DNA of 20,051 nt from a virus: IMG/VR virus record IMGVR_UViG_3300006565_000009, positions 1 through 20,051 of that record, one strand, 5' to 3'. Shown here piece after piece: positions 493 through 13,627 of this stretch. The notes below the pieces were generated by a model. The model searched no databases. It saw only the letters and a program-made list of their open reading frames with translations, and was not told where the DNA came from. Both the position numbers and the translations under genes were made by a program. Positions within the stretch are counted from its first letter, which is position 1; every line of letters starts with the position of its first letter.

Positions 493-879
493 ATGATTTT
501 CACTGAATTGACTTCAGAAAACTTTCTGTTATTTGCCATTAAACATTACGAAAATCCCCAAGCAGTAACCAAAGAAGATTTTGAAAAGGACTTAAATCAC
601 TTTAAGTACATCAAGAGATTATTAAAAAGATACAGGAATACAGGTGAGCTCAAAGCTCACCTTCTTCTTAATCACTTTATTATTCTCTATAATATCTTTG
701 GGGAAGGAACAACTGCTATGTTGTTCTATAAAATTGAAGAGGAAATGTGGGATATTATGAAAACATTTGTTGTTTTCTTAGATAAATTGCCTGAATATCC
801 TAAATGTTTTATTCATGATATCGAAGTTGATGAATATTGTCTCGCAGAACTAGGAAGAATCTATGATGAGAAGAAGTAA
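493..879 (+). CDS. Conserved hypothetical phage protein, 128 aa
   Basis: An ORF of 128 residues starts at ATG 493, seven bases after the previous stop. The protein is helical-looking, aromatic-rich and fairly charged, with a long hydrophobic stretch around residues 52-75 (HLLLNHFIILYNIFGEG) and an acidic, aromatic C-terminal half. There is no signal peptide. The central hydrophobic part carries charged residues and looks like a buried helix rather than a certain membrane span. No catalytic motif is seen. From memory, similar small proteins occur in T4-like marine cyanophages next to structural genes, but I cannot assign a function. No strong Shine-Dalgarno sequence precedes it. Its 3' end overlaps the next gene by 17 bases, which suggests translational coupling. 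Confidence 0.8.
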   Translation: MIFTELTSENFLLFAIKHYENPQAVTKEDFEKDLNHFKYIKRLLKRYRNTGELKAHLLLNHFIILYNIFGEGTTAMLFYKIEEEMWDIMKTFVVFLDKLPEYPKCFIHDIEVDEYCLAELGRIYDEKK

Positions 880-1066
880 ACTTAATAAAATTATTTCTAT
901 CATCAGAGAAGAGATGATGACTGCTAATGCTCCTGGTGCTTCAGGTGGTTTTGGTGCTGATTCTCCTGCCAAAGGTCCAAGAGCTGGATTTTCTCCTGTG
1001 ATGGGTAAGGTGATGAAAAGAAAGAAAAGTTTAGGTGTTTGGTCAAGATCTCTGAGGAAAAAATGA
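863..1066 (+). CDS. Small basic hypothetical protein, 67 aa
   Basis: This 67-residue protein overlaps the end of the upstream gene by 17 bases. An AGGAAG ribosome site at 852-857 lies 5 bases before ATG 863 and 8 before ATG 866, so either Met may be used. The N-terminus is a charged helix (KLNKIISIIREEMM). A Gly/Ala/Pro-rich linker follows (residues ~21-47), and the C-terminus is strongly basic (MKRKKSLGVWSRSLRKK). It resembles small conserved proteins of T4-like cyanophages, function unknown. The stop TGA at 1064-1066 overlaps the next ATG at 1063 as ATGA. The basic tail would suit nucleic-acid or membrane contact, but that is inference only. Confidence 0.75.
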   Translation: MMRRSKLNKIISIIREEMMTANAPGASGGFGADSPAKGPRAGFSPVMGKVMKRKKSLGVWSRSLRKK

Positions 1067-1446: not shown

Positions 1447-2415
1447 ATGAATCTAATTGATTCCAAATATATTGGATTAGTATCTTCTAGGTTAATAAAA
1501 TTTAAAAGGGTTAAGTCTGATCTTTATAATTTCAGATGCCCTATTTGTGGCGATTCTAAGAAAAATAAGACCAAGACTAGAGGGTATCTGTATACAATAA
1601 AAGCAGATGTAAATTTTAGGTGTCACAATTGTGGTGCTTCTATGACCTTTAGTAATTTTCTAAAGGAGATAGATCCTGTTATTCATAAACAGTATGTTTT
1701 TGAAAGATTTAAGGATGGTCATACAGGTAGAGGAACTGTTGTTGAGGAACCAAAGTTTAACTTTCAACCTCCAACATTTAAACCTAAGTTAGATTTGCCT
1801 AAGGCATCTCTAAATCCTGCTGCTAAAAACTATCTTGAAAAGAGAAAGTTAGATCCTAATAAATTTTATTATACGGATAAATTTAAAGCATGGTCTAACT
1901 CACATAAACAAACTTTTGATGATGTGAGTTATGATGAACCAAGGATAATTATTCCTTTGTTCTATCAAAAAACTTTGATTGGTTTTCAAGGAAGATCCCT
2001 TGGTCCAAGCAAGGTTAAATATATTACAGTAATGATTAATGATGAAGCACCAAAGATCTACGGACTGGATAACATCAGAAGAGATGCTCCAGTCTTCGTT
2101 ACAGAAGGACCGTTTGATAGCACATTCATACGCAATTCGATTGCTATGTGTGGTGCAGACGGTGATGTTGGGAAGTGGGGTATTAGCGATCCTGTTTGGG
2201 TTTATGATAACGAACCAAGGTCTAAGGAAATTACAACAAGAATCTCCAACACCATCGACAGAGGTGATAAAGTCGTTATCTGGCCAAACAACCTAAAGGA
2301 AAAGGACATAAATGATATGGTTCTTGCTGGACATTCCGTACAGGAACTGCTAGAATCTAACATATATAATGGACTTAAAGCAAAACTGCAATTTAACACC
2401 TGGAAAAGAATATGA
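1447..2415 (+). CDS. 61: DNA primase, T4 gp61-like
   Basis: The protein of 322 residues is close to the 342 of T4 gp61, the primase subunit of the phage primosome, which makes short RNA primers for lagging-strand synthesis together with the gp41 helicase. The N-terminus has a zinc-ribbon: CPICGDS (Cys31, Cys34) and FRCHNCG (Cys59, Cys62), which recognises single-stranded template. The central part contains a TOPRIM catalytic domain: VTEGPFDS, with the conserved Glu near residue 220, then YDNEP with Asp near 254, the expected metal-binding acidic positions. The ATG at 1447 follows the previous stop by nine bases. The stop overlaps the nrdA start as ATGA (2412-2415), so primase and nrdA are probably translated in succession from one transcript. 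Confidence 0.93.
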   Translation: MNLIDSKYIGLVSSRLIKFKRVKSDLYNFRCPICGDSKKNKTKTRGYLYTIKADVNFRCHNCGASMTFSNFLKEIDPVIHKQYVFERFKDGHTGRGTVVEEPKFNFQPPTFKPKLDLPKASLNPAAKNYLEKRKLDPNKFYYTDKFKAWSNSHKQTFDDVSYDEPRIIIPLFYQKTLIGFQGRSLGPSKVKYITVMINDEAPKIYGLDNIRRDAPVFVTEGPFDSTFIRNSIAMCGADGDVGKWGISDPVWVYDNEPRSKEITTRISNTIDRGDKVVIWPNNLKEKDINDMVLAGHSVQELLESNIYNGLKAKLQFNTWKRI

Positions 2416-3434
2416 GCAACGGCATCAAAGTTAAAAAGCGTAATGGAAGAGGAGATGAACCTCTTAACCTAGAGAAGATGCATAGGATGGTTGAAGAGGC
2501 AACCAAGGGCGTTGCAGGAGTATCTGCAAGTCAAGTAGAAATACAATCAGGAATTCAATTTTATGATGGTATTACAACTCAAGAGATTCAAGAGATTTTA
2601 ATTAAGTCTGCTAGTGATCTTATTAGTTTGGATAATCCTAATTATCAGTATGTTGCTGCGAGGTTGTTGCTTTTTGCAGTTCGAAAGAATCTTTATGGGA
2701 AATTGAGAGTACTTCCCCATTTAGAACAGCATATTATGAATTGTACAAATATAGATGTGTATGATAAAGATATTTTTACAAAGTATTCTAAAGAAGAAAT
2801 TGATAAAGTAAATGGATTTATAGACCACGAACGTGACTTTTTGTTTACATATGCTGGATTACGGCAAGTTGTAGATAAATACTTGGTACAAGACCGTAGT
2901 GGTGGCGGTGTTTATGAAACACCACAGTTTATGTACATTATGATCGCATTGACGATCTTCGCAGAATATCCTAAAGAAAAGAGGCTTAATTATGTCAGAC
3001 GATACTACGACGCAATCTCCAAGCACAGAATCAACATCCCCACCCCCATCATGGCAGGAGTCAGAACCCCTTACGTCAATTTGCATCTTGTGTTCTGGTT
3101 GATATTGACGATACCCTCGATAGTATCTTTAGCTCTGATATGGCTATTGGGAAATACGTTGCACAAAGGGCTGGTATCGGTATTAACGCTGGAAGAATCA
3201 GGGGAATCAACGCTAAAATCAGAGACGGAGAGGTTCAGCACACAGGTGTTGTACCCTTCCTTAAAAAATTTGAGTCAACTGTCAGATGTTGCACACAAAA
3301 CGGTATTAGAGGCGGCTCCGCAACTGTCCACTTTCCTATCTGGCATCAAGAGATCAGCGACATCTTGGTACTCAAAAACAACAAAGGAACAGAAGACAAC
3401 AGAGTCAGAAAACTCGACTACAGCATCCAATTAA
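2412..3434 (+). CDS. nrdA: Ribonucleotide reductase large subunit NrdA, 5' portion (gene frameshifted near 3070)
   Basis: This is the N-terminal part of class Ia ribonucleotide reductase alpha subunit, which reduces ribonucleoside diphosphates to deoxy forms for phage DNA synthesis. Residues ~4-95 form an ATP-cone (IKVKKRNGRG, PLNLEKMHRMVEEATKGV, and a segment ending in PNYQYVAARLLL), the allosteric activity site. The NrdA barrel begins after this and family-like sequence continues to IPTPIMAGVRTP at about 3070. Beyond that the frame runs on to a stop at 3434, but the residues (YVNLHLVFWLIL onward) are unlike any NrdA. The correct continuation is found one frame back. The true 5' part is therefore 2412-3070 and the last ~120 residues are an artefact of the shift. 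The start ATG overlaps the primase stop. Confidence 0.85.
   Translation: MSNGIKVKKRNGRGDEPLNLEKMHRMVEEATKGVAGVSASQVEIQSGIQFYDGITTQEIQEILIKSASDLISLDNPNYQYVAARLLLFAVRKNLYGKLRVLPHLEQHIMNCTNIDVYDKDIFTKYSKEEIDKVNGFIDHERDFLFTYAGLRQVVDKYLVQDRSGGGVYETPQFMYIMIALTIFAEYPKEKRLNYVRRYYDAISKHRINIPTPIMAGVRTPYVNLHLVFWLILTIPSIVSLALIWLLGNTLHKGLVSVLTLEESGESTLKSETERFSTQVLYPSLKNLSQLSDVAHKTVLEAAPQLSTFLSGIKRSATSWYSKTTKEQKTTESENSTTASN
3064..3073 (+). other. Frameshift site in nrdA (C-run)
   Basis: The upstream frame reads V-R-T-P at 3060-3071 and the downstream frame reads L-R-Q-F-A-S-C from 3071. Joined, they give VRTPLRQFASC, which is what an intact NrdA should read. The join needs one extra base, and the sequence has four C's (3067-3070) where five would restore the frame. 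A one-base deletion in a homopolymer (sequencing or assembly error, or a real mutation) is the simplest explanation. A -1 ribosomal slip after CCT would give the same product, but the site is not a good slippery heptamer. Confidence 0.85.
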
Positions 3435-4744
3435 GTAAATTATTCTATGAGCGATTTATCCAAAACAGTACTATTAGCCTATTCAGCCCTCATGATGTGC
3501 CTGGGTTGTATGACGCTTTTGGTAGCGATTCCTTTGACGAACTCTATACTAGATACGAATCAGACGAATCTATCCCCCGAACCACAATCGGAGCTCAAGA
3601 TCTTATAATAGATCTGTTGAAAGAAAGAGCAGAAACTGGTAGAATATATTTGATGAACATAGATCATTGTAATTCTCACTCATCCTTTTTGGATAAAGTA
3701 GAGATGAGCAATCTATGTCAAGAGATTACTCTACCAACCAAACCTATACAACATATTGACGATGAAACTGGAGAAATTGCTCTCTGTATCCTTAGTGCTA
3801 TTAATATTGGCAAAATTAGGGATGTTTCGGATCTTGAAAGTCTTTGCGATCTTAGTGTTAGGAGTCTTGATGAACTCATTGATTTTCAAGGATACCCAGT
3901 CAGAGCAGCAGAGATCGCTACAAAGGCAAGAAGATCCTTGGGAGTTGGTTTTATTGGACTCGCACACTACCTTGCCAAGCAAGGCGTTAAGTACGAAGAT
4001 CCAGAGGCATGGAAGTTAATTCATGATCTTACTGAAGTATTCCAGTATAACCTAGTTAAATCTTCGGTTAATCTTGCTAAAGAAAAAGGTGCTTGTACTT
4101 ATTCTGATAGAACTAAGTATGCTCAAGGTATTCTTAATATTGATACTTATAAGAAAGATGTTGATGAATTAGTTCCAAATAATTTAAATTGTGATTGGGA
4201 ATCGCTTAGGGAGGAAGTAAAGCAGTATGGTATTCGTAATAGCACTCTATCTGCTCAAATGCCCTCAGAGTCTTCTTCTGTTGTATGTAATGCCACTAAT
4301 GGTATTGAACCACCTAGAGGATATCTCTCTGTTAAGAAATCAAAGAAAGGACCACTCAAACAGATAGTTCCGCAGTATAATACTCTTAAGAATAATTATA
4401 CTCTTCTTTGGGATATGCCAAACAATACTGGTTACATCAATATCGTTGCTGTAATGCAGAAGTTCTTTGATCAGGCAATTTCTGGAAACTGGTCTTATAA
4501 TCCTCAACATTTTGATGGTAATGAAGTTCCAACAAGTGTTATGGCACAAGATTTATTAACCACATATAAGTATGGTTGGAAGACATCTTATTATCAGAAT
4601 ACTTATGATATTAAAACTGATGAAGTTGATTTATCAGTTCCTAATACAGAAGATGTAGGTATTCAGGGTAGTACACAATTGAATAGTTTAATAGAAGAAT
4701 TAGCAAACGCAACTGAAGAGGAGTGTGAGTCCTGTGCCATCTAA
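3071..4744 (+). CDS. nrdA: Ribonucleotide reductase large subunit NrdA, 3' portion
   Basis: The frame containing this part is open from 2990, and recognisable NrdA sequence begins at codon 3071 (LRQFASCVLVDIDDTLDS). It holds the catalytic residues of class Ia reductase: the first redox Cys at 3089 (FASC), the N-x-C-x-E triad in NLCQE (Asn 3710, thiyl-radical Cys 3716, Glu 3722), the second redox Cys at 3785 (ALCIL), and the C-terminal CESCAI shuttle cysteines re-reduced by thioredoxin or glutaredoxin. The ATG at 3140 (MAIGKYVAQRAG) is an internal methionine, not a natural start. Together with the 5' portion the gene would encode about 777 residues, against 754 in T4. nrdB follows directly, so both subunits come from one transcript. 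Confidence 0.92.
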   Translation, partial: LRQFASCVLVDIDDTLDSIFSSDMAIGKYVAQRAGIGINAGRIRGINAKIRDGEVQHTGVVPFLKKFESTVRCCTQNGIRGGSATVHFPIWHQEISDILVLKNNKGTEDNRVRKLDYSIQLSKLFYERFIQNSTISLFSPHDVPGLYDAFGSDSFDELYTRYESDESIPRTTIGAQDLIIDLLKERAETGRIYLMNIDHCNSHSSFLDKVEMSNLCQEITLPTKPIQHIDDETGEIALCILSAINIGKIRDVSDLESLCDLSVRSLDELIDFQGYPVRAAEIATKARRSLGVGFIGLAHYLAKQGVKYEDPEAWKLIHDLTEVFQYNLVKSSVNLAKEKGACTYSDRTKYAQGILNIDTYKKDVDELVPNNLNCDWESLREEVKQYGIRNSTLSAQMPSESSSVVCNATNGIEPPRGYLSVKKSKKGPLKQIVPQYNTLKNNYTLLWDMPNNTGYINIVAVMQKFFDQAISGNWSYNPQHFDGNEVPTSVMAQDLLTTYKYGWKTSYYQNTYDIKTDEVDLSVPNTEDVGIQGSTQLNSLIEELANATEEECESCAI

Positions 4745-4754
4745 AGTGAAAGGA

Positions 4755-5885
4755 ATGACGGTATTTAATACCGCAGATATAAACACCAAGAAACAACCAA
4801 TGTTTTTTGGTGCTCCTCTAGGAGTTCAAAGATATGATAATTTTAAATATCCTCAGTTTGAGAATCTAACAAAATCTCAACTGGGATATTTTTGGCGACC
4901 AGAAGAAGTTTCTTTACAGAAAGATCGTGGAGACTATCAAACGCTTCGTCCAGAACAGAAGCACATCTATACGAGCAATCTTAAATACCAGATCATGCTC
5001 GATAGTGTACAAGGCCGTGCTCCTGGTATGGCTTTCTTACCTTACTGTTCTCTACCTGAGTTAGAGGCATGTATGGAAGCATGGTCTTTTATGGAGATGA
5101 TCCATAGCAGATCATATACTTATGTGATTAAGAATGTATATTCTGATCCATCAGAGGTATTTGATACGATTATTAAAGATGATCGTATTCTAGAACGTGC
5201 TGCTAGTGTAACTGGATCATATGATGATTTTATTAATTACGCACAGGAGTATGGTCAGAGTAGTGCTTGGACACCTGAGATGAAGGATCATCCTAACTCT
5301 GAATGGACAATCAAAGATCTCAAAAAACATTTATATAGGGCAGTCGCTAATGTCAACATCTTGGAGGGTATTCGTTTTTACGTATCTTTTGCTTGCTCTT
5401 TTGCTTTCGGTGAGCTCAAGCTCATGGAGGGATCCGCAAAAATCATATCCCTCATTGCACGAGATGAGAATCAACACCTCGCCATTACCCAAAACATAAT
5501 AAACAATTGGAGAAAGGGTGATGATCCTGATATGGTTGAGATAATGAAGGAAGAGGAGCAGTGGACATATGATATGTTTGATAAGTGTGTGAATGAGGAG
5601 AAGAAGTGGGCAGAGTACTTATTTAAAGATGGATCAATGATCGGTCTTAATGATAAACTTCTACAACAGTATGTTGAGTTTATTGCTAATAAGAGATTAA
5701 GAGGAATTGGTTTAAAACCATTATATGATATTCCAGCAAAAAATAATCCATTACCTTGGACAGAGCATTGGATTAGTTCTAAGGGTCTTCAAGTAGCACC
5801 ACAAGAAACTGAAGTAGAATCTTACATTGTAGGGGGAATTAAACAAGATGTTAAAAAAGACACCTTCGCAGGATTTAAACTCTGA
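4755..5885 (+). CDS. nrdB: Ribonucleotide reductase small subunit NrdB (class Ia)
   Basis: This is the radical-generating beta subunit that partners NrdA. The di-iron and tyrosyl-radical signature is complete: EMIHSRSY supplies Glu and His ligands and the radical Tyr exactly four residues after the His, as in E. coli (E115, H118, Y122). LEGIRFYVSFACSFAF supplies the third Glu region, and ARDENQHL the final Glu-x-x-His pair. From ATG 4755 (MTVFNTADIN) the length is 376 residues; T4 NrdB has 388. I prefer 4755 because it is where the family normally begins, but GTG at 4725 or 4734 is possible: a GAGGAG site at 4718-4723, inside the end of nrdA, sits 10 bases before GTG 4734. The gene lies 10 bases after the nrdA stop. 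Confidence 0.93.
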   Translation: MTVFNTADINTKKQPMFFGAPLGVQRYDNFKYPQFENLTKSQLGYFWRPEEVSLQKDRGDYQTLRPEQKHIYTSNLKYQIMLDSVQGRAPGMAFLPYCSLPELEACMEAWSFMEMIHSRSYTYVIKNVYSDPSEVFDTIIKDDRILERAASVTGSYDDFINYAQEYGQSSAWTPEMKDHPNSEWTIKDLKKHLYRAVANVNILEGIRFYVSFACSFAFGELKLMEGSAKIISLIARDENQHLAITQNIINNWRKGDDPDMVEIMKEEEQWTYDMFDKCVNEEKKWAEYLFKDGSMIGLNDKLLQQYVEFIANKRLRGIGLKPLYDIPAKNNPLPWTEHWISSKGLQVAPQETEVESYIVGGIKQDVKKDTFAGFKL

Positions 5886-5985
5886 TGAAGAGTTTAGAAG
5901 GATTTGGATGGAGATGGATCGTATAGAACCTCTTACACCAACTCCTATTTGGCATCCTGATAATTATAAAAAAGTGGATGAATAA
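5848..5985 (+). CDS. Small hypothetical protein, 45 aa, overlapping nrdB end
   Basis: This 45-residue frame starts at ATG 5848 inside the last codons of nrdB (38-base overlap) and ends at TAA 5983-5985. A purine-rich AGGGGG at 5831-5836 lies 11 bases upstream and could serve as its ribosome site. The protein is acidic and Trp/Pro-containing (EEFRRIWMEMDRIEP, then TPTPIWHPDNY). This composition looks like a real small phage protein, and the frame fills the gap exactly up to the next late promoter, whose box overlaps its stop. No function is recognised. It may be a reductase-operon accessory peptide by position only. Confidence 0.55.
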   Translation: MLKKTPSQDLNSDEEFRRIWMEMDRIEPLTPTPIWHPDNYKKVDE

Positions 5986-5988
5986 ATA
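5981..5988 (+). promoter_or_regulatory. Late promoter -10 box (AATAAATA)
   Basis: The box matches the cyanophage late motif NATAAATA (T4: TATAAATA), recognised by RNA polymerase with the gp55/gp33-type late sigma and coactivator. Its last base is 25 nt before the ATG at 6014, within the 21-36 nt range seen for the other late boxes here, and it lies at the boundary between the nrd block and the structural block. Confidence 0.6.
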
Positions 5989-6013
5989 CTAAGATATAGT
6001 GTCTGGAAGCCAG

Positions 6014-7183
6014 ATGAAATCTTTTACACAATTCATATCTGAAAAGAAAAATAGTAATAAGAAGGGTAATACTAGTGGAACTAAAAGTACTAAAGGTTCT
6101 GGATCTGGGAATATAGGTAGTGCAGAGAATAAATTTAGATCTACTTCAGGTAAAGTTGATACTAATACAGTAAGGCAGACAACATCACAAGTAGCAGACA
6201 CTGCTACAAATACTCCTCAAGGACAAAAGGCATTTCGTGATGCAATAAGAGATTCACAGGGTACACCACCATCAACACCTACTCAGAAAACTAAGGTTAA
6301 GGCTAAATTAGATAGATATGTTCAGAAAGATTTATTTGGAGATGGTGCAGAAGCATTAAAAGATAGAATAGATCCAAATCAAAGATATTCTAGACCTGCA
6401 ACAAAAGGGTGGACTGGAGGAATAGAACAACCAGCAACGAAGGTAAGTGGTAAGAGTTTTGATCAATTAAAAAAAGAGATTGATTCAAAAGTAGATAGAA
6501 GATCTACCAATAAACCCCCTCAAGGTACTCAATTTAAACGTACTAAAGGTGGAGCACTTGCGACAAAACAAGATTTAACACCCCCATCATTTAAACCCAG
6601 TAATAATAAGACTGTAGTAAAAGATTTAAAGAAGAATAATAAAAATTTTAAAAACTTATTTAAGGATTCTCTTAAAACTGCTAAGGATAGTAAGGTATTA
6701 AACAAAGGAGCTAAGACATTCCAAAAGTTTGCTAATAATCCTGCAGTAAAGGGTGTTACTAAGGTTGGTGGTAAACTTACAGGACCTGCTTTTGCTGCTC
6801 TTGATGTTAAAGGTGAGTTTGATGCTGCAAAAGAACAAGGAAGGACTAATAGAGGTGCTTTAACTAAAGCTGGTGTTAAAGTTGGTGCTGGTTATGCTGG
6901 TTGGGCAGCAGGTGCTAAAGCAGGTGCTGCTACAGGTGCAGCATTAGGTAGTTTCTTCCCAGGTCCAGGAACTGCTATAGGTGGAGCAATTGGTGGTATA
7001 GCAGGTGGTTTGACTGGATATTGGGCTGGTTCTAAATTAGCTGGTTCAACTTATGACAAAATTGCAGGACCAACTCAAAAGCAAAAAGATGCAGTTGCAA
7101 ATGCTCAAGTTGCTATAACAAAGGCGAAGGAGAAAAAGAAATTAAAAACTGGTGTTTATTTGAATACTGGTAAGTATTCTTAG
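6014..7183 (+). CDS. Putative capsid-internal protein with T4-type capsid-targeting sequence and glycine zipper, 389 aa
   Basis: I set the start at ATG 6014 because a GGAAG site (6005-6009) precedes it and because the resulting N-terminus, MKSFTQFISE, closely parallels the capsid-targeting sequence of T4 internal proteins (MKTYQEFIAE). GTG at 5999 would add five residues and hide this. In T4 the prohead protease gp21 cleaves after the Glu of an (I/L)-x-E motif; here I-S-E|K is present. The next ~200 residues are low-complexity, Lys/Asn/Thr/Ser-rich and basic. Residues ~270-345 form a Gly/Ala-rich, hydrophobic stretch (GYAGWAAGAKAG, AIGGAIGGIAGG) of glycine-zipper type that could insert into membranes. 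It has its own late promoter. An internal head protein ejected with DNA is my inference; a plain structural protein is the alternative. Confidence 0.8.
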   Translation: MKSFTQFISEKKNSNKKGNTSGTKSTKGSGSGNIGSAENKFRSTSGKVDTNTVRQTTSQVADTATNTPQGQKAFRDAIRDSQGTPPSTPTQKTKVKAKLDRYVQKDLFGDGAEALKDRIDPNQRYSRPATKGWTGGIEQPATKVSGKSFDQLKKEIDSKVDRRSTNKPPQGTQFKRTKGGALATKQDLTPPSFKPSNNKTVVKDLKKNNKNFKNLFKDSLKTAKDSKVLNKGAKTFQKFANNPAVKGVTKVGGKLTGPAFAALDVKGEFDAAKEQGRTNRGALTKAGVKVGAGYAGWAAGAKAGAATGAALGSFFPGPGTAIGGAIGGIAGGLTGYWAGSKLAGSTYDKIAGPTQKQKDAVANAQVAITKAKEKKKLKTGVYLNTGKYS

Positions 7184-7184
7184 A

Positions 7185-7192
7185 TATAAATA
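7185..7192 (+). promoter_or_regulatory. Late promoter -10 box (TATAAATA)
   Basis: This is a perfect match to the T4 late-promoter box, starting just after the TAG stop of the upstream gene and ending 28 nt before the ATG at 7221. By T4 geometry transcription should begin near 7198, inside the left arm of the inverted repeat at 7194-7201. Confidence 0.7.
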
Positions 7193-7193
7193 T

Positions 7194-7224
7194 ACATTGT
7201 ATAGGTGTATAGTGTCTACAATGT
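7194..7224 (+). promoter_or_regulatory. Inverted repeat masking a start codon, next to a late promoter
   Basis: ACATTGTA (7194-7201) and TACAATGT (7217-7224) are perfect 8-bp complements separated by 15 bases, and the right arm contains the ATG at 7221. RNA read through from upstream could pair the arms and hide the start codon. RNA begun at the late box 7185-7192 would start inside the left arm and could not form the full stem. The stem is AU-rich and therefore weak, so this is a plausible but unproven switch. Confidence 0.35.
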
Positions 7225-8417
7225 CATACAATAATATAGAAGACATACGAGTTTTGCTTGAAGATGTATCTGAGATTGAAGATACTGAGGGAACTAATAT
7301 TGTTGAGTCTATCTATTGCTCAATGTTATCTGAGGGTTATAGTAGTGGAGCGATAGAAGGTTATTTAAAGTCAGCAACTCAAACTGAGTTAATTGAGAAA
7401 TATTTTTCATTATCAGATGAAATTCTTATTAATGAAAATTATGAAAACCTTTTACTTGAAAAGAAGGGTTTAATACAGAGTATTGGTAAAGGTTTAAAAG
7501 AGATTGGTAAGAAATTTGGCAAAAATTTTAAGAAGAAATGGAATAATCCAGATTGGAAAGGTGGAAAGGAAGGATTAAAGAAAGTAAAAACACCTAAGAA
7601 TACTAAGAATACTATTACCGATCCTTGGCTTGATGGTGCTGATAAGTATAAAAAGTCAGACGCTTTTCCAATTACAGGATCAAAAAGTAGTAAAAAGTCT
7701 ATTAGTGATAAATTAGGTACATTAGGTAAAAATATTAAGACTAAAGGTTCTAATGCTGTTGATAAATCTAAGAACTTTGTGAAGAATAATCCTGTTAAAT
7801 CTGCTGTTATTGGTGGTGCTGTTACTGGTGCTGGTACTGCTGTTGCAACCAATGCAGTTTTAAGTGGTGGAAGGAAGAAGAAGGAAGCAGAGAAACAAGC
7901 TCAGTATGATGCAGAGAAATCAGCACAAAAAGCTACTAATGTAGCACTGCAATCAAAGATAGATCAGTTATCTAAAGATTTCCAAGCATCTCAACAAAGA
8001 CTAGCTGCTAAGAATGCAGGAGAACAGGCAGCAAAAGCAGCAGCACAAGCGAAAAAGGATCAGAGGGAGTCTGATAAGAAGGCTTATTTACACAAAATAC
8101 GTAACAGTCCTGCAGTAAAATCGGGTGCTTTTAGTGGTGAAGATTTATATAAACAGCATTTAAAGCATAAACAATGGCAAAAGGATAATAATAGAGGAGA
8201 ATTTCGTAAGAATAAGAAATCTGGTGGCAGAAAATGGAATCCAAGTAATAGAGTTACACAGGTGATGGATTTAGAGTCTTATGAACCATATGATATAGTT
8301 CTTGATTATTTACTAGAAACAAATCAAGTAACAACAATTGAAGAAGCAAATTATGTAATGCTTGAAATGGATTCAAAAACCATTCAAGGTATTGTTGAGG
8401 ATTTTAATAAGGAATAA
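7221..8417 (+). CDS. Lysine-rich putative virion/internal protein, 398 aa
   Basis: The start is placed at ATG 7221; an in-frame TTG at 7197 is unlikely. Residues 1-80 are acidic and helical (VLLEDVSEIEDTEG, YLKSATQTELIEKYF). At residue 80 an L-L-E|K motif matches the T4 gp21 cleavage pattern. It is followed by a very basic amphipathic segment, residues 81-107 (GLIQSIGKGLKEIGKKFG). A Gly/Ala hydrophobic segment lies near residues 197-216 (AVIGGAVTGAGTAVATNA), followed by an Ala/Lys/Gln-rich coiled-coil-like stretch and a basic region. The C-terminus is a compact acidic helical domain (IVLDYLLETNQV, EEANYVMLEMDS) of a type I recall from other cyanophage virion proteins. The tandem position and similar composition suggest a partner of the upstream gene. 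Its stop abuts the stop of the opposing gene with no spacer. Confidence 0.8.
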   Translation: MSYNNIEDIRVLLEDVSEIEDTEGTNIVESIYCSMLSEGYSSGAIEGYLKSATQTELIEKYFSLSDEILINENYENLLLEKKGLIQSIGKGLKEIGKKFGKNFKKKWNNPDWKGGKEGLKKVKTPKNTKNTITDPWLDGADKYKKSDAFPITGSKSSKKSISDKLGTLGKNIKTKGSNAVDKSKNFVKNNPVKSAVIGGAVTGAGTAVATNAVLSGGRKKKEAEKQAQYDAEKSAQKATNVALQSKIDQLSKDFQASQQRLAAKNAGEQAAKAAAQAKKDQRESDKKAYLHKIRNSPAVKSGAFSGEDLYKQHLKHKQWQKDNNRGEFRKNKKSGGRKWNPSNRVTQVMDLESYEPYDIVLDYLLETNQVTTIEEANYVMLEMDSKTIQGIVEDFNKE

Positions 8418-8762
8418 TTATCTCGTTACTGGTCTTTTTACTACTGCCGACCCTTCAACAACTCTTGTTGTTTTTCCTTGAGGGTCGGTTATTAGTATGT
8501 CATAAAGATATCTTCCTGCACTTAAGGTTTCTGTAACTGCAGCAGTCATAGCAATTTGTACTCTACCAGTTGTTGCATCACTTGCTGTAGAGAAATTAAA
8601 TGCTGCTACTTTAGATGAAGATTCATATTTTTTTAATTCTGCACATCCAGTATATCCCGTCAAATCCATTAAGGTATTTGATTGACTATCTTCTAATACA
8701 AAAGTTTGAGCGAAATCTGTTCCACTGTATAGTCCAATATTAGATACAAATACTGATGCCAT
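8418..8762 (-). CDS. Single-domain beta-sandwich virion protein, 114 aa
   Basis: This 114-residue protein is made up of one beta-rich domain: MASVFVSNIGLYSGTDFAQ at the start, then DLTGYTGCAELKK, an ETLSAGRYLYDILITDPQGK strand pair, and VVEGSAVVKRPVTR at the end. The same pattern forms the N-terminal domain of the gene at 9393-9983, so the two are paralogous. Proteins with this Ig-like fold are common in T4-like cyanophage structural regions; the exact virion location is unknown. A late box on the minus strand (8786-8793) ends 23 nt before its ATG. The gene runs opposite to its left neighbour and ends base-to-base against it. Confidence 0.85.
   Translation of the reverse strand: MASVFVSNIGLYSGTDFAQTFVLEDSQSNTLMDLTGYTGCAELKKYESSSKVAAFNFSTASDATTGRVQIAMTAAVTETLSAGRYLYDILITDPQGKTTRVVEGSAVVKRPVTR
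8447..8488. terminator. Nested hairpin at the convergent gene ends (possible bidirectional terminator)
   Basis: CCGACCCT (8447-8454) pairs with AGGGTCGG (8481-8488). Inside it, AACAAC (8457-8462) pairs with GTTGTT (8467-8472) around a four-base loop, and on the plus strand a run of five T's spans 8471-8475. It lies inside the 3' end of the minus-strand gene, about 30 bases past the plus-strand stop. The bases also encode DPQGKTTRVVEGS, so the structure may be a by-product of coding. The T-run is weak for a classical terminator. Confidence 0.3.
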
Positions 8763-8785
8763 TATAGTTTTACCTTATAATTAGA

Positions 8786-8793
8786 TATTTATG
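8786..8793 (-). promoter_or_regulatory. Late promoter -10 box, minus strand (CATAAATA)
   Basis: Read on the minus strand this is CATAAATA, ending 23 nt upstream of the ATG at 8762. It overlaps the stop codon of the upstream minus-strand gene (8789-8791), so the small gene has its own late start even though it lies downstream of two others. Confidence 0.55.
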
Positions 8794-9391
8794 ATAAGTC
8801 TTTTGTAAATGCATCAACCCAATCACTACCACTAACAGTCATTACTGTAATATTTCTTTCAGTTAATTTTGATACTAATTGATTATATGATGCTTCAGCT
8901 GAATAATCATTTTTATATATTGCAACTTTGGATCCATCTGGTAATCTATCTAATCCACATATAGTGTACCAATCAGATGTATTTGAAGTATTTCCACTAT
9001 CAGCATTAACATTGATTGGACCATAAGTTAGTCCATCTGAATCTTGTCCTACAATTGTAGAAGTATCGTTAATTGTTATTATGTTTGATGATGTTAGTGC
9101 TATACCAGCAACACCACCTTCTCTTATTGTTATTCTAAATCTTTCTGTTCCCTCAGTGGCCCTATCACGACTTAGGGTTCTTGTAAATGTTTGTGGACTT
9201 GTCCAGATCCAAAGACTTCCTGTTAATGATACATCAGTAAAATCAGATGCTGTAAGATTACCTTCTAATCCTTCTTGTTCAGTTGACCAATAAAGAGATT
9301 TATTAAGTGATGTGGAAGGTGATGTAATAGTGAATGAAAGGGTTCCACCTTCATTTGCAACAGTAGAATCTTCCGTAATTGATGTATTCAT
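8789..9391 (-). CDS. Calx-beta-like virion/appendage protein, 200 aa
   Basis: The N-terminal ~115 residues have the features of a Calx-beta-type repeat as found in phage fibre and adhesin-like proteins: ANEGGTLSFTITSPSTS, LYWSTEQEG, ASDFTDVSLTGS, a TEGTERFRITIREGG strand, then SSNIITINDTS. The remaining ~85 residues form a different domain, WYTICGLDRLPDGSKVAIYK, then YNQLVSKLTERNITVMTVSG and a DWVDAF end. Its alternating strand/helix pattern recalls a von Willebrand A fold, but the metal-binding DxSxS motif is not intact (the equivalent stretch reads KNDYSAE). The stop of the preceding gene is one base upstream of this ATG, so the pair is probably co-translated. Likely role: surface or fibre component; the target is unknown. 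Confidence 0.75.
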   Translation of the reverse strand: MNTSITEDSTVANEGGTLSFTITSPSTSLNKSLYWSTEQEGLEGNLTASDFTDVSLTGSLWIWTSPQTFTRTLSRDRATEGTERFRITIREGGVAGIALTSSNIITINDTSTIVGQDSDGLTYGPINVNADSGNTSNTSDWYTICGLDRLPDGSKVAIYKNDYSAEASYNQLVSKLTERNITVMTVSGSDWVDAFTKDLS

Positions 9392-9392
9392 T

Positions 9393-9983
9393 TTATATTA
9401 GAGGTTTAACATTTACAGTAGTTTGATTTAAGAAATTATCTGGAGCTACTATATTATTGTAGTCGGTATTAGTTGCTTTAGTACCAAATCCAGAATAATT
9501 TGGTTTTATAACATAAAACATTCTATTAGGATATGTATTTCTAAATGTTTCCCATTTAGATTCCATATGTGCAAATGATTGATTATTCCAACTAATTATA
9601 GCTATACAAACTCTTTGGTCACTATTTGGTGTGGAAAATGAACATGAAGTAGAAATTCCTGCTCTTACTGTAGCAGAACCTTCTAAAACAATTTCACTTT
9701 CTCCATTTGGTTTATTTACTAAAACGTCATATACATATCTACCAGATTTTAGTTTTGATGTTGCCCAACTTGGAAAATGTAGATTTATTTTACCTTCTTT
9801 TCTATTTGGAAATCCAACATTAAAATTTATAGAACTTGAACTATCTCTATGTTTTCTTAGTTGACTTCTTGCAGTGTAGTTTGTTAGATCTATACTATTA
9901 CCACCCATTTCAAGAAGATCAAATTCCTGATTAAAATCTTCTCCTGTATTAACAGTAATATTATTTACATATACAACAGACAT
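9393..9983 (-). CDS. Two-domain virion protein with Ig-like N-terminus, 196 aa
   Basis: Residues 1-~108 match the whole of the 114-residue protein at 8418-8762 in pattern: VYVNNITVNTGEDFNQEFDL, IDLTNYTARSQLRKH, LKSGRYVYDVLVNKPNGES, VLEGSATVRAG. Both share V.N/SNI....G.DF.Q.F, DLT.YT, GRY.YD.L and EGSA.V. Residues ~109-196 form an unrelated domain with a hydrophobic strand (RVCIAIISWNNQSF), a helix (HMESKWETFRNTYP) and another strand (RMFYVIKPNYSG), which I do not recognise. A minus-strand late box at 10007-10014 lies 23 nt before the ATG, the same distance as at the short paralogue. It is first of three co-directional minus genes and probably a virion or appendage protein. Confidence 0.8.
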   Translation of the reverse strand: MSVVYVNNITVNTGEDFNQEFDLLEMGGNSIDLTNYTARSQLRKHRDSSSSINFNVGFPNRKEGKINLHFPSWATSKLKSGRYVYDVLVNKPNGESEIVLEGSATVRAGISTSCSFSTPNSDQRVCIAIISWNNQSFAHMESKWETFRNTYPNRMFYVIKPNYSGFGTKATNTDYNNIVAPDNFLNQTTVNVKPLI

Positions 9984-10006
9984 TTTAGATTATATTACAT
10001 ATTAGG

Positions 10007-10014
10007 TATTTATC
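10007..10014 (-). promoter_or_regulatory. Late promoter -10 box, minus strand (GATAAATA)
   Basis: On the minus strand the box reads GATAAATA and ends 23 nt before the ATG at 9983. It lies in the 46-base divergent gap to the plus-strand gene at 10030. I see no convincing NATAAATA on the plus strand of this gap; TATAAG at 10018-10023 is a poor match. Confidence 0.6.
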
Positions 10015-10029
10015 ATATATAAGTATGAG

Positions 10030-10497
10030 ATGAATGATGATTATGAAATGGAAGGAGATTATGAAAATCCCTGGCACTACAAAGGTACAGCTTTCACTTC
10101 TGATGATATTGGCGATTTCTTCGGTTTCGTCTACTGTATTACTAATATCAAGTCGGGTAAACAATATATCGGAAGAAAGTATTTCCAACAAAAACGTAAG
10201 CCTAGAGGTGGTAAGAGACGGGTTACGTCTGAGAGTGACTGGAAAAAATACTATGGAAGCTCTGACGAGCTTAGTGCAGATCGAAAGTTACTTGGAAACA
10301 CAGCGTTCAAACGAGAGATCTTATCCCTCCATACCAGACTCGGAGATGTAAACTACGAGGAAACAAAACAGTTATTTCTTAATAATGTTTTACAAGAATC
10401 ACTTGACAATGGAGAACCAGCATATTACAATAGCAACATCTTAGGACGTTATATGCGTAAAGACTATGGATCTTTTGGAAAAGACATTAAAGAATAG
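10030..10497 (+). CDS. GIY-YIG-like protein, 155 aa (possible Seg-type endonuclease)
   Basis: The segment FGFVYCITNIKSGKQYIGRK fits the core of a GIY-YIG nuclease domain: the GFVY strand, about ten residues, then YIG followed at once by Arg. A basic stretch (QQKRKPRGGKRR), a KKYYGSS motif and a conserved-looking NYEETKQLF with Glu follow, as expected for the catalytic Arg and Glu. Such proteins in T4 are the Seg homing endonucleases. Closely similar sequences seem widespread in T4-like cyanophages, so this copy may have a fixed phage role rather than be a mobile element. Start ATG 10030; neighbouring ATGs at 10025 and 10034 are in other frames. It is divergent from the minus-strand cassette, and its end overlaps the next gene by 32 bases. 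Confidence 0.8.
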   Translation: MNDDYEMEGDYENPWHYKGTAFTSDDIGDFFGFVYCITNIKSGKQYIGRKYFQQKRKPRGGKRRVTSESDWKKYYGSSDELSADRKLLGNTAFKREILSLHTRLGDVNYEETKQLFLNNVLQESLDNGEPAYYNSNILGRYMRKDYGSFGKDIKE

Positions 10498-10678
10498 TCA
10501 TGATTGGGCAATTCATCGTATGGATGTATTGTGTAAATTGGGAACTATTGAGGATATTGAAGACGCAGAATCTATTCGACAAGAATTTAAAGAATGGATA
10601 GTTCCTAATGCCAAAGTTCACAATATAGATATACTTTCTCTTGAATATTTTGGAGAAGGAAGTGACTTTGATAAATAA
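10466..10678 (+). CDS. Small acidic hypothetical protein, up to 70 aa
   Basis: The frame opens at ATG 10466 inside the end of the GIY-YIG-like gene and runs to TAA at 10676-10678. An internal ATG at 10520 (MDVLCKLG) would give 52 residues. Neither start has a clear ribosome site, so the N-terminus is uncertain. The protein is acidic and helix-like: KLGTIEDIEDAESIRQEF, EWIVPNAKVHNID, then LEYFGEGSDFDK. No motif is recognised and no membrane segment is present. The stop lies inside the late-promoter box that serves the next gene. Confidence 0.6.
   Translation: MDLLEKTLKNSHDWAIHRMDVLCKLGTIEDIEDAESIRQEFKEWIVPNAKVHNIDILSLEYFGEGSDFDK
10670..10677 (+). promoter_or_regulatory. Late promoter -10 box (GATAAATA)
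   Basis: GATAAATA ends 21 nt before the ATG at 10699, the shortest spacing of the set, and overlaps the previous gene's final codons. It probably drives the membrane-protein run starting at 10699. Confidence 0.5.
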
Positions 10679-10698
10679 AAATTACTTGTATTAAAATC

Positions 10699-10947
10699 AT
10701 GCAAAAAATAATCAATGTACTTGCTGTTGCGTCTGCTGCTGTATCTGTTGCCGTTGTTGGCCTTGGTGGGTATGTTTACCTTAATAGGGAAGCCATCATA
10801 GAAGATGTAAAACAAAAAGCACTTGGTGGTCTTGGTGGATCATTGGGTGGTGGATCATTAGGAGGGGATCTTCCTATTGGTGCTCCTGATCTTGCTGCTC
10901 CTGATACTTCTGCAGGTCTTCCTTCTTCTGATATTAAACCATTTTAA
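10699..10947 (+). CDS. Small membrane protein with Gly-rich tail, 82 aa
   Basis: Residues ~4-27 form one hydrophobic helix (INVLAVASAAVSVAVVGLGG), preceded by a single Lys. A short charged helix (NREAIIEDVKQKA) and a Gly/Leu/Ser repeat (GGLGGSLGGGSLGGD) follow, ending in a Pro/Ala/Asp-rich tail. The first segment could be a signal anchor or an uncleaved transmembrane helix; there is no lipobox Cys. Similar one-helix proteins are frequent in T4-like cyanophages and have no assigned function. It begins 22 bases after a late box, lacks a clear Shine-Dalgarno sequence, and starts a run of envelope-type small genes. Confidence 0.75.
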   Translation: MQKIINVLAVASAAVSVAVVGLGGYVYLNREAIIEDVKQKALGGLGGSLGGGSLGGDLPIGAPDLAAPDTSAGLPSSDIKPF

Positions 10948-10948
10948 G

Positions 10949-10975
10949 ATTGCTATATAGTAGAGAATTGCTATA
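10949..10975 (+). repeat. Direct repeat of ATTGCTATA, 18-base period
   Basis: ATTGCTATA occurs at 10949-10957 and again at 10967-10975, exactly 18 bases apart, filling the 33-base gap between two genes. Each copy contains TGnTATA. The second reads TGCTATACT, an extended -10-like element, but it lies only a few bases before the ATG at 10981. Confidence 0.5.
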
Positions 10976-10980
10976 CTAGA

Positions 10981-11475
10981 ATGGCTGAAGAAGTAAAAGA
11001 AGAAGAGATTCTTGAAGAAGAACCCAAAGAAGAAAAGAAAGGGTTGTTTCAAAAGGCAAAAGATGCTATACTACCTGATGCTGATGAACAAGCAGCCATA
11101 ATCAGTACATTCGTCAGAATTACTGTCCTTGCCTGGTCAGGTGGAATATTGACATTAAATTATGTTGCCATTCCAGGTGTACCACAACAGAAAATTGACC
11201 CAACATTTATAGCTTCAGTTTTTACAGGAGTTTTAGCTTCCTTCGGAATTCAGACCGCATCTAAGAAAGGTGACGGAACGATGAAGATGCAGAACAACGG
11301 TAACGGAAATGGAAATGGTGGTGGCAACGGTGGTGGTGGCATTAGCAAAAAAGACCTTGAGTTGTTAATCGAAAAAGCTTCCCAGACAGGTCCTACTCAA
11401 ACAATTAGAATTGAGCAAGCACCTATTAAGATTAGTACTGTTGACGACAAACCAACAGATACATTCAAGATGTAA
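10981..11475 (+). CDS. Two-helix membrane protein with acidic N-terminus, 164 aa
   Basis: The first ~23 residues are strongly acidic (EEVKEEEILEEEPKEEKK). Two hydrophobic segments follow at about residues 43-63 (FVRITVLAWSGGILTLNYVA) and 75-92 (TFIASVFTGVLASFGIQTAS), separated by a short Pro/Gly loop. A Gly/Asn repeat (NGNGNGNGGGNGGGG) links them to a C-terminal helix and a tail (KKDLELLIEKASQTG). Two helices with a charged end are compatible with a holin-like or other envelope protein, but nothing in the sequence proves lysis function. The ATG has no visible Shine-Dalgarno sequence. Confidence 0.75.
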   Translation: MAEEVKEEEILEEEPKEEKKGLFQKAKDAILPDADEQAAIISTFVRITVLAWSGGILTLNYVAIPGVPQQKIDPTFIASVFTGVLASFGIQTASKKGDGTMKMQNNGNGNGNGGGNGGGGISKKDLELLIEKASQTGPTQTIRIEQAPIKISTVDDKPTDTFKM

Positions 11476-11490
11476 AATCCGTGTTTTTTT

Positions 11491-12093
11491 ATGATGGACA
11501 AACAAATAAATTGGACTAAGTGGTCCGCCCTTGGATTGGGTGGATTACTTGGTCTTTCGCATATAAGTATGATTATAATGCTTGCTACTAGACAACAAAG
11601 CAAGTATCCTAAGATTGATATCCCTCCCGTGAATCAATACTCTTCAGTTAGAGTAATGGCAGGAGAAGATGGATATAGTCTTGAGTATCGTGGAAATGAT
11701 CCTAAGAGTATGTTTACTACCAAAACTGTAAACAGAGGTGGGTTCCTTAAGAAAGGTGATACAACTACTGTCACACAAGAATATACTATGGATGGTGCTG
11801 TGCATCATGGTGGTCCAGTATCTAATGGTAGAACTTGGATTGACCCTGCAGGTGTAGGTAGTTTTAGTGAAAAAAAGAGTAGTGCCAAAACCGAGGCATG
11901 TATTGAGGCAAGAGGTGGTGGAAAATCAACAGGAAGACTTGTCGGTGGTAGCGTTGGTGCTGCTGCTGGTTCTGGTCTCTCCTCTATTCCTTTCGTTGGC
12001 TGGGTTTTGGCTGGTGCTGCTACGATGATTGGTATGAATGAAGGTGCTGATCTTGGTGGTGATGTTGCAGAATCTTTCAGCGATGATTGTTAA
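11491..12093 (+). CDS. Membrane-anchored hypothetical protein with C-terminal glycine zipper, 200 aa
   Basis: The N-terminus holds one hydrophobic helix (WSALGLGGLLGLSHISMIIM). A middle soluble region includes VMAGEDGYSLEYRGNDPKSM and a TTVTQEYTMDGAVHHGG stretch. The C-terminal ~50 residues are Gly/Ala-rich and hydrophobic (GRLVGGSVGAAAGSGLSSIP, VGWVLAGAATMIGM), a glycine-zipper-like region. Single Cys residues occur at SAKTEACIEARG and as the final residue. ATG 11491 and 11494 are both possible starts; neither has a ribosome site. It is probably an envelope or virion protein of unknown role. A late box follows two bases after its stop. Confidence 0.75.
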   Translation: MMDKQINWTKWSALGLGGLLGLSHISMIIMLATRQQSKYPKIDIPPVNQYSSVRVMAGEDGYSLEYRGNDPKSMFTTKTVNRGGFLKKGDTTTVTQEYTMDGAVHHGGPVSNGRTWIDPAGVGSFSEKKSSAKTEACIEARGGGKSTGRLVGGSVGAAAGSGLSSIPFVGWVLAGAATMIGMNEGADLGGDVAESFSDDC

Positions 12094-12094
12094 T

Positions 12095-12102
12095 AATAAA
12101 TA
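12095..12102 (+). promoter_or_regulatory. Late promoter -10 box (AATAAATA)
   Basis: AATAAATA follows the TAA of the preceding gene and ends 35 nt before the ATG at 12138. It would transcribe the coupled run of small genes from 12138 to 13089, ending with the first NifU-like gene. Confidence 0.5.
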
Positions 12103-12137
12103 TAAAGAGGATATTAAATAACTAACTACTTAGGAAA

Positions 12138-12341
12138 ATGAACGACCAATATCCCAAGCCACGGTGGGATCTTGAGAATGATATCCTTCGATTAGAGCAA
12201 ATGATTATCCTGTACGAGCAAGAAATCGAACAACTAAAGATAGAGAAGAAAGAGTTGAAGAGGGAAATCACTTTCCTTAGAACTCAACTTGAATATAAAT
12301 CATTAGGTAATCCAAATGGGATGGAAGATGTGGAATCTTAA
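12138..12341 (+). CDS. Short coiled-coil protein, 67 aa
   Basis: Nearly the whole chain (residues ~10-55) is a charged heptad-type helix: LENDILRLEQMIILYEQEIE, then KIEKKELKREITFLRTQLEY, typical of a parallel coiled coil. TAGGAAA directly before the ATG gives a good ribosome site. The short tail is NPNGMEDVES. It overlaps the next small gene by 26 bases. The function is unknown; a small oligomerisation or scaffold role is a guess from the coiled coil alone. Confidence 0.75.
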   Translation: MNDQYPKPRWDLENDILRLEQMIILYEQEIEQLKIEKKELKREITFLRTQLEYKSLGNPNGMEDVES

Positions 12342-12483
12342 TCTAAAAGAAGCATTTCATAATCTCAAAGAATGGGATAAGAAATGGGCAAAGAAAATCC
12401 AAGAGAAATTTAAATTAACAGATTATCAAATGTTATGTCTTGCATTTGGTAAAGGGTTTATTATAGGTGCTATACTCTTATGA
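12316..12483 (+). CDS. Small amphipathic/membrane protein, 55 aa
   Basis: The frame runs from ATG 12316 to TGA 12481-12483, with a second possible ATG at 12328. The N-terminal part is Trp/Lys-rich and helical (NLNLKEAFHNLKEWDKKWAK). The C-terminus is hydrophobic (YQMLCLAFGKGFIIGAILL) and could be a membrane helix. Its 5' end overlaps the coiled-coil gene and its stop overlaps the next start as ATGA (12480-12483). This fits translational coupling and is the main argument that it is real. The function is unknown. Confidence 0.7.
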   Translation: MGWKMWNLNLKEAFHNLKEWDKKWAKKIQEKFKLTDYQMLCLAFGKGFIIGAILL

Positions 12484-12806
12484 TATTTGCGATACTGTAT
12501 ATACTAATAAGCGTTGCTATGTTAGGTGCAGCATTCGCTTTAATTTTTAGGAACTTAAGAGATATTGATAAGATTGAAAAGGGTACTTATAATATAGTGG
12601 AAAAGAAAAGGTTTGTTACTAGACAGCAGCATCCAGAAATGGAAGATGTTGAAGTTGGTGATGAATTATTAATTGTTAGATTTGATGAACCTAAAAAGGA
12701 GAAAGATCCAAGATTTAAATTAGATTCTCCAGAACTTCATAATCTTGGTGATCCAATGTATAAATCACTACAGGAAAGAATTGAAGAATTAGAACAAGAT
12801 GAGTGA
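12480..12806 (+). CDS. Single-pass membrane protein, 108 aa
   Basis: Residues 2-24 are a hydrophobic helix (IFAILYILISVAMLGAAFAL) followed by basic residues (RNLRD), so the rest should be cytoplasmic. The soluble part has a small beta-like segment (DVEVGDELLIVRFDEPKKEK) and ends in an acidic helix (SLQERIEELEQDE). It starts with the ATGA overlap and shares eight bases with the following NifU-like gene. No family is recognised, although such proteins recur in T4-like cyanophages. Confidence 0.75.
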   Translation: MIFAILYILISVAMLGAAFALIFRNLRDIDKIEKGTYNIVEKKRFVTRQQHPEMEDVEVGDELLIVRFDEPKKEKDPRFKLDSPELHNLGDPMYKSLQERIEELEQDE

Positions 12807-13089
12807 CAATCAGTATGAGTATCTGAAAAGGCAGCATTATTTGGCAACACACATGGAATTAACAGAAGAAAATGTAGTAAGAGTTTTAGAAGAACTTGTT
12901 CCTTACATAGAAGCGGATGGAGGATACCTTCAACTTGTGGAGATAGAATATGAAACAGGATATGTTAAGGTAAAATTGGGTGGTGCGTGTGAGACATGTG
13001 CCATGAGTACAATGACATTGAAGCAAGGTATAGAGAGTAAACTTATGCATGAAATTCCTGATGTTGTTGGAGTTGTGCAGGTTCTCTAA
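12799..13089 (+). CDS. NifU-like (Nfu-domain) iron-sulfur protein, copy 1, 96 aa
   Basis: This is an Nfu domain, the C-terminal unit of NifU that carries a [4Fe-4S] cluster between subunits and hands it to apo-proteins. The hallmarks are all present: VLEELVPYIEADGGYLQLVE, then VKVKLGGACETCAMSTMT with the cluster-binding C-x-x-C, then TLKQGIESKLMHEIPDVVGV. The domain begins at the internal ATG 12853 (MELTEENV). From ATG 12799 an extra 18 residues precede it; that start overlaps the upstream stop, so I keep it, though 12853 is possible. A second copy about 80% identical over 76 residues lies at 14862-15092. Such proteins are known auxiliary genes of marine cyanophages. Confidence 0.9.
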   Translation: MSDNQYEYLKRQHYLATHMELTEENVVRVLEELVPYIEADGGYLQLVEIEYETGYVKVKLGGACETCAMSTMTLKQGIESKLMHEIPDVVGVVQVL

Positions 13090-13138: not shown

Positions 13139-13146
13139 AATAAATA
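13139..13146 (+). promoter_or_regulatory. Late promoter -10 box (AATAAATA), overlapping a TATAAT
   Basis: AATAAATA ends 24 nt before ATG 13171. TATAAT at 13136-13141 overlaps it and equals the sigma-70 -10 consensus, but no good -35 is seen at 16-18 bp upstream. The site could serve both early and late transcription. Confidence 0.5.
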
Positions 13147-13170
13147 TCATTAGTATGGGATTGAAGAATC

Positions 13171-13401
13171 ATGCCCCTAACGCAACAAAAGCATTACATT
13201 GTCGGTTATCACGACACACAACATCAACATTATGAAATCTGCGAATACGCTGTAGATTCATATAACGCAATACAGAATTCTAAAGAGGATGTTCCTTATC
13301 TAAGGGAGCATCCTTCTTTTATTGACTATTGTACAAAAGAGTTACCTGAGATCGATAGGATTACACATCTTATGGCAGCAGGTATTCCTATGGGACATTG
13401 A
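13171..13401 (+). CDS. Small hypothetical protein, 76 aa
   Basis: The start is ATG 13171, after a GAAG site and a promoter box in an 81-base gap, so this gene opens a new transcription unit. The protein is rich in His, Tyr and Gln (HYIVGYHDTQHQHYEICEYA) and has a helical acidic second half (YLREHPSFIDYCTKELPEID). Two Cys residues and several His residues are present, but they are not arranged as a clear metal site. There is no membrane segment. The function is unknown. The next gene begins two bases after its stop. Confidence 0.7.
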   Translation: MPLTQQKHYIVGYHDTQHQHYEICEYAVDSYNAIQNSKEDVPYLREHPSFIDYCTKELPEIDRITHLMAAGIPMGH

Positions 13402-13403
13402 TT

Positions 13404-13499
13404 ATGAAACATGAAATAATGTGGTGGATGAGTAGAATCACCATCATGGGAACCTCTTTAAGTTTATCAGTGTGGCTTGCTGCACAGGCATATGCTTAG
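13404..13499 (+). CDS. Small membrane/signal-peptide-like protein, 31 aa
   Basis: A 31-residue frame begins two bases after the previous stop. It reads as one short hydrophobic helix preceded by Trp/Arg residues (MWWMSRITIMGTSLSLSVWL) and ends in AAQAYA, which resembles a signal-peptidase site at the very C-terminus. It is therefore a one-helix membrane peptide. Tight packing with neighbours supports it. The function is unknown. Confidence 0.5.
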   Translation: MKHEIMWWMSRITIMGTSLSLSVWLAAQAYA

Positions 13500-13527
13500 A
13501 CCTTTAATAGAATGGATAGGGGGGAAT

Positions 13528-13626: not shown

Positions 13627-13627
13627 T

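Follow-up and report, generated by a model that had tools for sequence, protein, structure and literature searches.

The gene at 6014-7183 of the window (the whole 20,051-nucleotide stretch of DNA analyzed here) probably encodes a late protein carried as cargo in the head of a T4-like cyanophage. Judging from its sequence, we expect this protein to be targeted by an N-terminal leader, cut after Glu10, retained with the DNA and probably ejected with it. The preliminary description had read it as an accessory late protein with a T4-type capsid-targeting sequence (CTS). This is supported by the conservation of the leader over the body, a late promoter, a single [IL]-x-E and the occurrence of such leaders on virion proteins.

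Leader and start codon

The open reading frame starts with an ATG at 6014 and extends to 7183 on the + strand (389 amino acids); its N-terminus, MKSFTQFISEKKNS, corresponds to window positions 6014-6055 (+). The following elements were identified around the start:

5981-5988, + strand: late-promoter-like motif AATAAATA (T4 late consensus TATAAATA), from a motif scan
6005-6009, + strand: GGAAG, probably the ribosome-binding site serving the 6014 ATG, read from the sequence
6014-6043, + strand: CTS-like leader MKSFTQFISE, next residues KKN (sequence, orthologs, motif counts and residue roles in T4)
6014-7183, + strand: predicted internal head protein with leader, 389 amino acids, basic and mostly low-complexity (sequence and alignment)

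An alternative in-frame GTG lies 15 nt upstream of the ATG. We consider the ATG as the true start because of the placement of GGAAG and because all orthologs start with M-K-S at the equivalent ATG.

The leader is identical to the T4 sequence MKTYQEFIAE at 5 of 10 positions, and most of the remaining positions are conservative changes. Mutagenesis of the T4 leader, as summarized in PMC9026906, assigned residues 4 and 7 to targeting and residues 8 and 10 to processing. All four are present in the window protein: position 4 is aromatic and position 7 is Phe (F4 and F7, also found in the orthologs save for a Leu4 in P-SSM2), while position 8 is hydrophobic and position 10 is Glu (I8 and E10). The ten-residue likeness claimed in the preliminary description is thus confirmed at its aromatic, Phe, Ile and Glu positions, as well as by its enrichment at starts (see below). 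The [IL]-x-E ending, said to fit the gp21 protease pattern, is equally borne out in the sequence, with no second site in the protein.

Genomic context

The 20-kb contig is cyanomyoviral (Kyanoviridae). The window gene follows nrdB, an arrangement also seen in P-SSM2, AG-345-F15, AG-345-E02 and IMG/VR contigs. A late-promoter motif, NATAAATA (ATAAATA), stands immediately upstream in 7 of 7 orthologs examined, and this conserved motif suggests late expression. Two further elements lie downstream:

7185-7192, + strand: exact T4 late-promoter consensus TATAAATA ahead of the companion gene, from a motif scan
7221-8417, + strand: companion protein with a C-terminal YDIVLDYLL..EANYVMLEMD..I..IV segment, from gene-neighborhood comparison

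The companion, which carries acidic helical stretches, also adjoins the leader-bearing gene in P-SSM2, AG-345-F15, AG-345-E02 and IMG/VR relatives. The gp21 gene is absent from the 20-kb contig; gp21 and matching gp23 sites occur in relatives.

Some other features of the contig deserve mention. At about 14,680-15,560 there is a switch: leftward, the contig is collinear with P-SSM2, and rightward (gp18, gp19 and a portal-like ORF) it is closest to P-TIM68, with NifU-like genes at 12799 and 14862. This may reflect recombination in the genome or a chimeric joint made in assembly near 14.8 kb; the window gene sits in the left part, and its arrangement is repeated in independent contigs. The nrdA gene occupies two frames, 2412-3434 and 3140-4744 (break at about 3,070-3,150), from either mutation or sequence error, and is a single intact frame in one relative. 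Finally, a 67-amino-acid ORF at 863-1066 (+) carries GFGADSPAKGPRAGFSPVMG, which is like the segment of gp23, the major capsid protein, located after the apparent processing site. Syn9 and S-CREM2 have a small protein with a near copy of their own gp23 segment (a looser copy is present in S-SM1), and two counterparts of this ORF, S-CREM2 gp160 and S-SCSM1 ORF97, are virion proteins.

Orthologs and conservation

The window protein had no match in a tblastn search of phage records, and orthologs were reached via flanking genes and the P-SSM2 protein, PSSM2_211, whose own matches among phage records were confined to P-SSM2, P-SSM5 and two Marine virus AG-345 records. We know of no virion proteome for P-SSM2, P-SSM5 or Marine virus AG-345. 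The orthologs start MKSLSQFIIETQ in P-SSM2, MKSFNEFLNISEKK in AG-345-F15 and MKSFSKFIIETS in AG-345-E02 (leader and next residues MKSFSKFIIE/TSS, where the slash, here and below, marks the putative cut), and the IMG/VR orthologs have the leader MKSF[ST]QFI.EK[KR]. Two genes beyond PSSM2_211, PSSM2_213 starts with VKTYQQFNES.

Identity in the leader ranges from 9 to 11 of 12 residues across orthologs, except in P-SSM2 (7 of 12), versus 20-38% in the diverged bodies. One close relative is 83% identical overall; in the same alignment, the remaining orthologs share 7-10 of 12 leader residues, 20-34% of residues 13-280 and 25-38% of residues 281-389. Lengths vary from 286 to 697 amino acids. The sole [IL]-x-E of the window protein is the leader end, and six of seven orthologs likewise have none elsewhere in the whole protein. 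The seven ortholog bodies contain one, versus 8.9 expected from shuffles, a depletion that is only descriptive because the sequences are related. A lone [IL]-x-E at the leader end fits a protein that is cut once and then kept.

This distribution bears on the idea that the protein is not cargo but, like T4 gp67/gp68, a scaffold-like part of the prohead core that is largely degraded and lost. A basic, low-complexity protein of highly variable length, adjoining a companion with acidic helical stretches, would suit such a role. However, there are zero [IL]-x-E in the window body and one in total in the seven orthologs, and leader-bearing proteins of relatives occur in mature virions (PMC10665884, PMC9602691, PMC3037559). 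We therefore regard a core component as improbable and retain the head cargo reading.

Predicted processing site

Is a lysine after Glu10 compatible with cleavage? The predicted cut lies between 6043 and 6044 (ISE/KKN). In place of the small residue usual after the scissile Glu in T4, the window protein has Lys11 at P1', a position not mapped as critical. The apparent gp23 processing sites, as read from the sequence, are FLSE/APN in P-SSM2 and AG-345-F15 and ILTE/T in S-SM1, and match the leader ending in form. P1' is Lys (E-K-[KR]) in the window protein, four IMG/VR orthologs and AG-345-F15, and Thr in the P-SSM2 and AG-345-E02 orthologs. In leader-bearing virion proteins it is F, E, A, Q or D (S-CREM2), or the first residue of K-K (S-CRM01 kinase). 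The preliminary description rightly pointed to the Lys as a weakness of its case, but the objection carries less weight than it assumed, since the leaders of virion proteins vary at this position.

Alternatively, the leader may function in targeting and stay on the protein, with Lys following Glu10. This would agree with the E-K-[KR] found in the window protein, the four IMG/VR orthologs and AG-345-F15, and with the separability of targeting and processing in T4 (PMC9026906). It would not account for the E/T of the P-SSM2 and AG-345-E02 orthologs or for an [IL]-x-E retained at the leader and nearly absent in bodies, and the S-CRM01 virion kinase likewise has a putative E/KK site. An unremoved leader thus seems to us rather unlikely, and cleavage after Glu10 is the reading we prefer.

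Frequency of the leader motif

A search of relatives for leader-type starts, as proposed in the preliminary description, covered 12 records (10 relatives, T4 and the window). A relaxed leader expression had 19 matches at start codons versus about 1.1 predicted by the frequency at non-start codons (23 matches in about 850,000 positions), an enrichment that is descriptive because the expression was fixed after examples had been seen. T4 served as a positive control and returned MKTYQEFIAE on proteins of 100 and 193 amino acids, which we take to be IPII and IPIII. The preliminary description had given this sequence to IPI-III together: it is exact in these two T4 proteins, while the IPI leader is merely similar (PMC9026906).

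Viral contigs scanned for the leader at the DNA level contained at least 119 such stretches, versus 0 with the same codons in scrambled order. The matches start many unrelated proteins; a leader common to unrelated proteins of one phage group, as expected of a CTS, is thus observed. Across 71 distinct leaders, the residue that follows is A in 34, E in 16, T in 7, K in 6, D in 6 and N in 2, with a pattern that admits these six residues only. Motif-bearing contigs have gp21 (PF03420) in 4 of 14 cases and gp23 in 5 of 14, counts drawn from incomplete contigs and without a control set. In two viral contigs (L004 and L112), three separate proteins each start with MKTFKQFI[ST]E, and a leader match in another (L118) lies on a protein resembling HAD hydrolase.

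Could the ten-residue likeness be due to chance? Just 5 of 10 residues are identical to T4, but the excess at start codons, the empty scrambled control and the persistence of the leader across orthologs make coincidence hardly credible.

Protein body

The body is basic and of low complexity with a glycine zipper, as the preliminary description had it: the window protein has 72 K+R versus 28 D+E and no Cys, and its glycine-zipper stretch contains 20 Gly in 65 residues. Two elements can be delimited:

6713-6730, + strand: second internal motif KTFQKF, residues 234-239, from the 8-row alignment, with no cleavage site after the motif
6854-7048, + strand: glycine-zipper segment, about residues 281-345, from sub-threshold Pfam Gly-zipper matches, invariant glycines and low-confidence helices

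F236 and F239 are invariant in the 8-row alignment. A KTFQKF-type motif arose in 2.8% of 5000 shuffled bodies, and the AG-345-F15 ortholog has no internal second motif; similar copies are C-terminal in S-SCSM1 ORF93 and S-SM2_163. The glycine-zipper segment, whose Pfam matches are below the curated cut-off, is possibly a membrane-active helical hairpin. AlphaFold, run with the 8-row alignment, gave no confident fold (mean pLDDT 42, pTM 0.24). T4 internal-protein families were not found among the PHROG or Pfam matches of the body, and tblastn of phage records was blank. We also sought a function in these domain libraries and discarded the outcome, as there were weak glycine-rich matches only, which we treated as compositional.

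The glycine-rich segment has weak PHROG matches to endolysin and tail families, which, together with the glycine zipper, could suggest a late tail- or membrane-associated protein (such as one acting in lysis or resembling a tape measure) with an incidental N-terminal likeness. However, these matches are concentrated in the Gly/Ala-rich part and seem to reflect composition, and such a function leaves both the conservation of the leader and its enrichment across families unexplained. We find it very improbable compared with a head cargo protein.

Leaders on cyanophage virion proteins

Similar leaders are found on cyanophage proteins detected in particles. T4-GC190, detected in S-SM1 particles (PMC3037559), has the leaders MKSFSQFLTE/T in P-SSM2 and MKKFSAFLNE/A in S-SM1. 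NMNAT/cytidylyltransferase proteins were detected in virions of S-SCSM1 (PMC9602691), S-SZBM1 (PMC9146016) and S-CREM2 (PMC10665884). Those of S-SCSM1 and S-CREM2, counterparts of T4-GC190, have the leaders MKSFLQFLKE/A and MKNFSSFLTE/A, respectively.

Taking the 52 proteins of PMC10665884 Table 3 as the S-CREM2 virion set, five have a strict leader: SAM hydrolase (MKDFDSFLEE), kinase (VKRFDAFLTE), NMNAT (MKNFSSFLTE), ORF13 (MKDLHSFLTE) and ORF136 (MQTFSMFFSE). The strict leader occurs in 5/52 virion-detected proteins versus 0/167 other annotated proteins (Fisher P-value of 6.5e-4, with a pattern widened after inspection); an earlier, narrower expression gave 2/52 versus 0/167 (P-value of 0.056). 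A sixth virion protein, annotated Cas9, has RFASFMAE/A at residues 18-25 and the C-terminal end KTFRDFLN. The authors of two virion proteomes left it undecided whether the enzymes are cargo or contaminants (PMC9602691, PMC10665884). The leader on SAM hydrolase, kinase and NMNAT favors cargo.

According to PMC10665884, the S-CRM01 serine/threonine kinase is a virion protein. It starts with MISFDQFLSE/KK, with the E/KK ending of the window protein. This start is one of five consecutive leader-like starts at 2749-7327 of S-CRM01 (L257), genes 131c to 127c: MNFSEFLEAIE, MISFDQFLSE, MKKLDQFLTE, LSLDSFIKE (some residues in) and MKLFNQFFKE. S-SCSM1 ORF30 (106 amino acids) has the leader, yet its annotation does not place it in the virion. 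Another recurrent element is a post-leader module of about 35 residues, ..LGL..DGHG.W.D...G..VA.T..G.L.F, seen in NMNAT, in the kinase (first copy looser, second clear) and in the nuclease annotated as Cas9, with loci at 7704-12846 in S-CREM2 (L253) and 13144-14418 in P-SSM2 (L229).

Comparison with known systems

By its sequence-defined features the N-terminus is that of a T4 CTS, and the body is not homologous to T4 internal proteins. Like IPII/IPIII, the window protein is basic with a ten-residue N-terminal leader (aromatic 4, F7, I8, E10). It differs in a body without detected similarity, in length (389 amino acids versus 100 or 193), in its P1' Lys, in its glycine-zipper C-terminus and in the second internal [KR][ST]FxxF motif. 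T4 Alt, a packaged ADP-ribosyltransferase cut N-terminally at ITE-6 and C-terminally at LTE-619 (PMC5694885), is packaged, ejected and trimmed after [LI]-x-E, in parallel to the leader-bearing cyanophage enzymes, whereas the window protein has no recognizable enzyme domain. The T4-GC190 NMNAT/cytidylyltransferase belongs to the same phage family, has the same leader type (MKSFSQFLTE in P-SSM2) and is found in cyanophage virions. However, it has an enzyme domain and an unrelated body, several phages add the GHG/W module after its leader, and its P1' is small (A, S or T) in the examples read. The S-CRM01 kinase shares the leader type (MISFDQFLSE) and the identical E/KK ending, but differs in its kinase domain and gene position.

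Proposed mechanism

We infer that the window protein is carried in virions, trimmed at residue 10 and injected, and the steps outlined here, from binding to the core through cleavage, retention and ejection to action at the membrane, are likewise inferred. The protein would be expressed late, and its first ten residues would draw it into the prohead core through contacts made by F4 and F7, as in T4. A gp21-type prohead protease would then cut after Glu10, and the basic mature protein of about 379 residues would stay with the packaged DNA, probably exiting with it at infection. More speculatively, once ejected, the protein could act on or within the host membrane through its glycine-zipper end.

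Significance

We are inclined to think that Kyanoviridae use a genome-wide T4-type capsid-targeting code. In this code, basic proteins as well as enzymes (SAM hydrolase, kinase, NMNAT and the nuclease annotated as Cas9) would be loaded into the head by a movable [ST]-F-x-x-F element and so delivered to cyanobacteria, the window protein being cargo with a second internal copy. N-terminal copies of this element could be cleaved, and the internal or C-terminal copies of some proteins would apparently stay uncut. In the open-access literature on capsid targeting (most subscription journals lie outside this scope), wider use of the leader by cyanophages looks unreported. A cyanophage CTS code that also labels enzymes would apparently be new, and a more interesting result than the window protein alone.

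The hypothetical proteins that cyanophages carry in their particles are a largely unknown set, and a leader readable from sequence would be a simple predictor of viral proteins carried in the particle and possibly delivered to the host. It would mark SAM hydrolase, kinase and NMNAT as intended cargo and predict more, the window protein included. If true, this would extend the T4 delivery route to marine cyanophages and make early host takeover in cyanobacteria directly testable.
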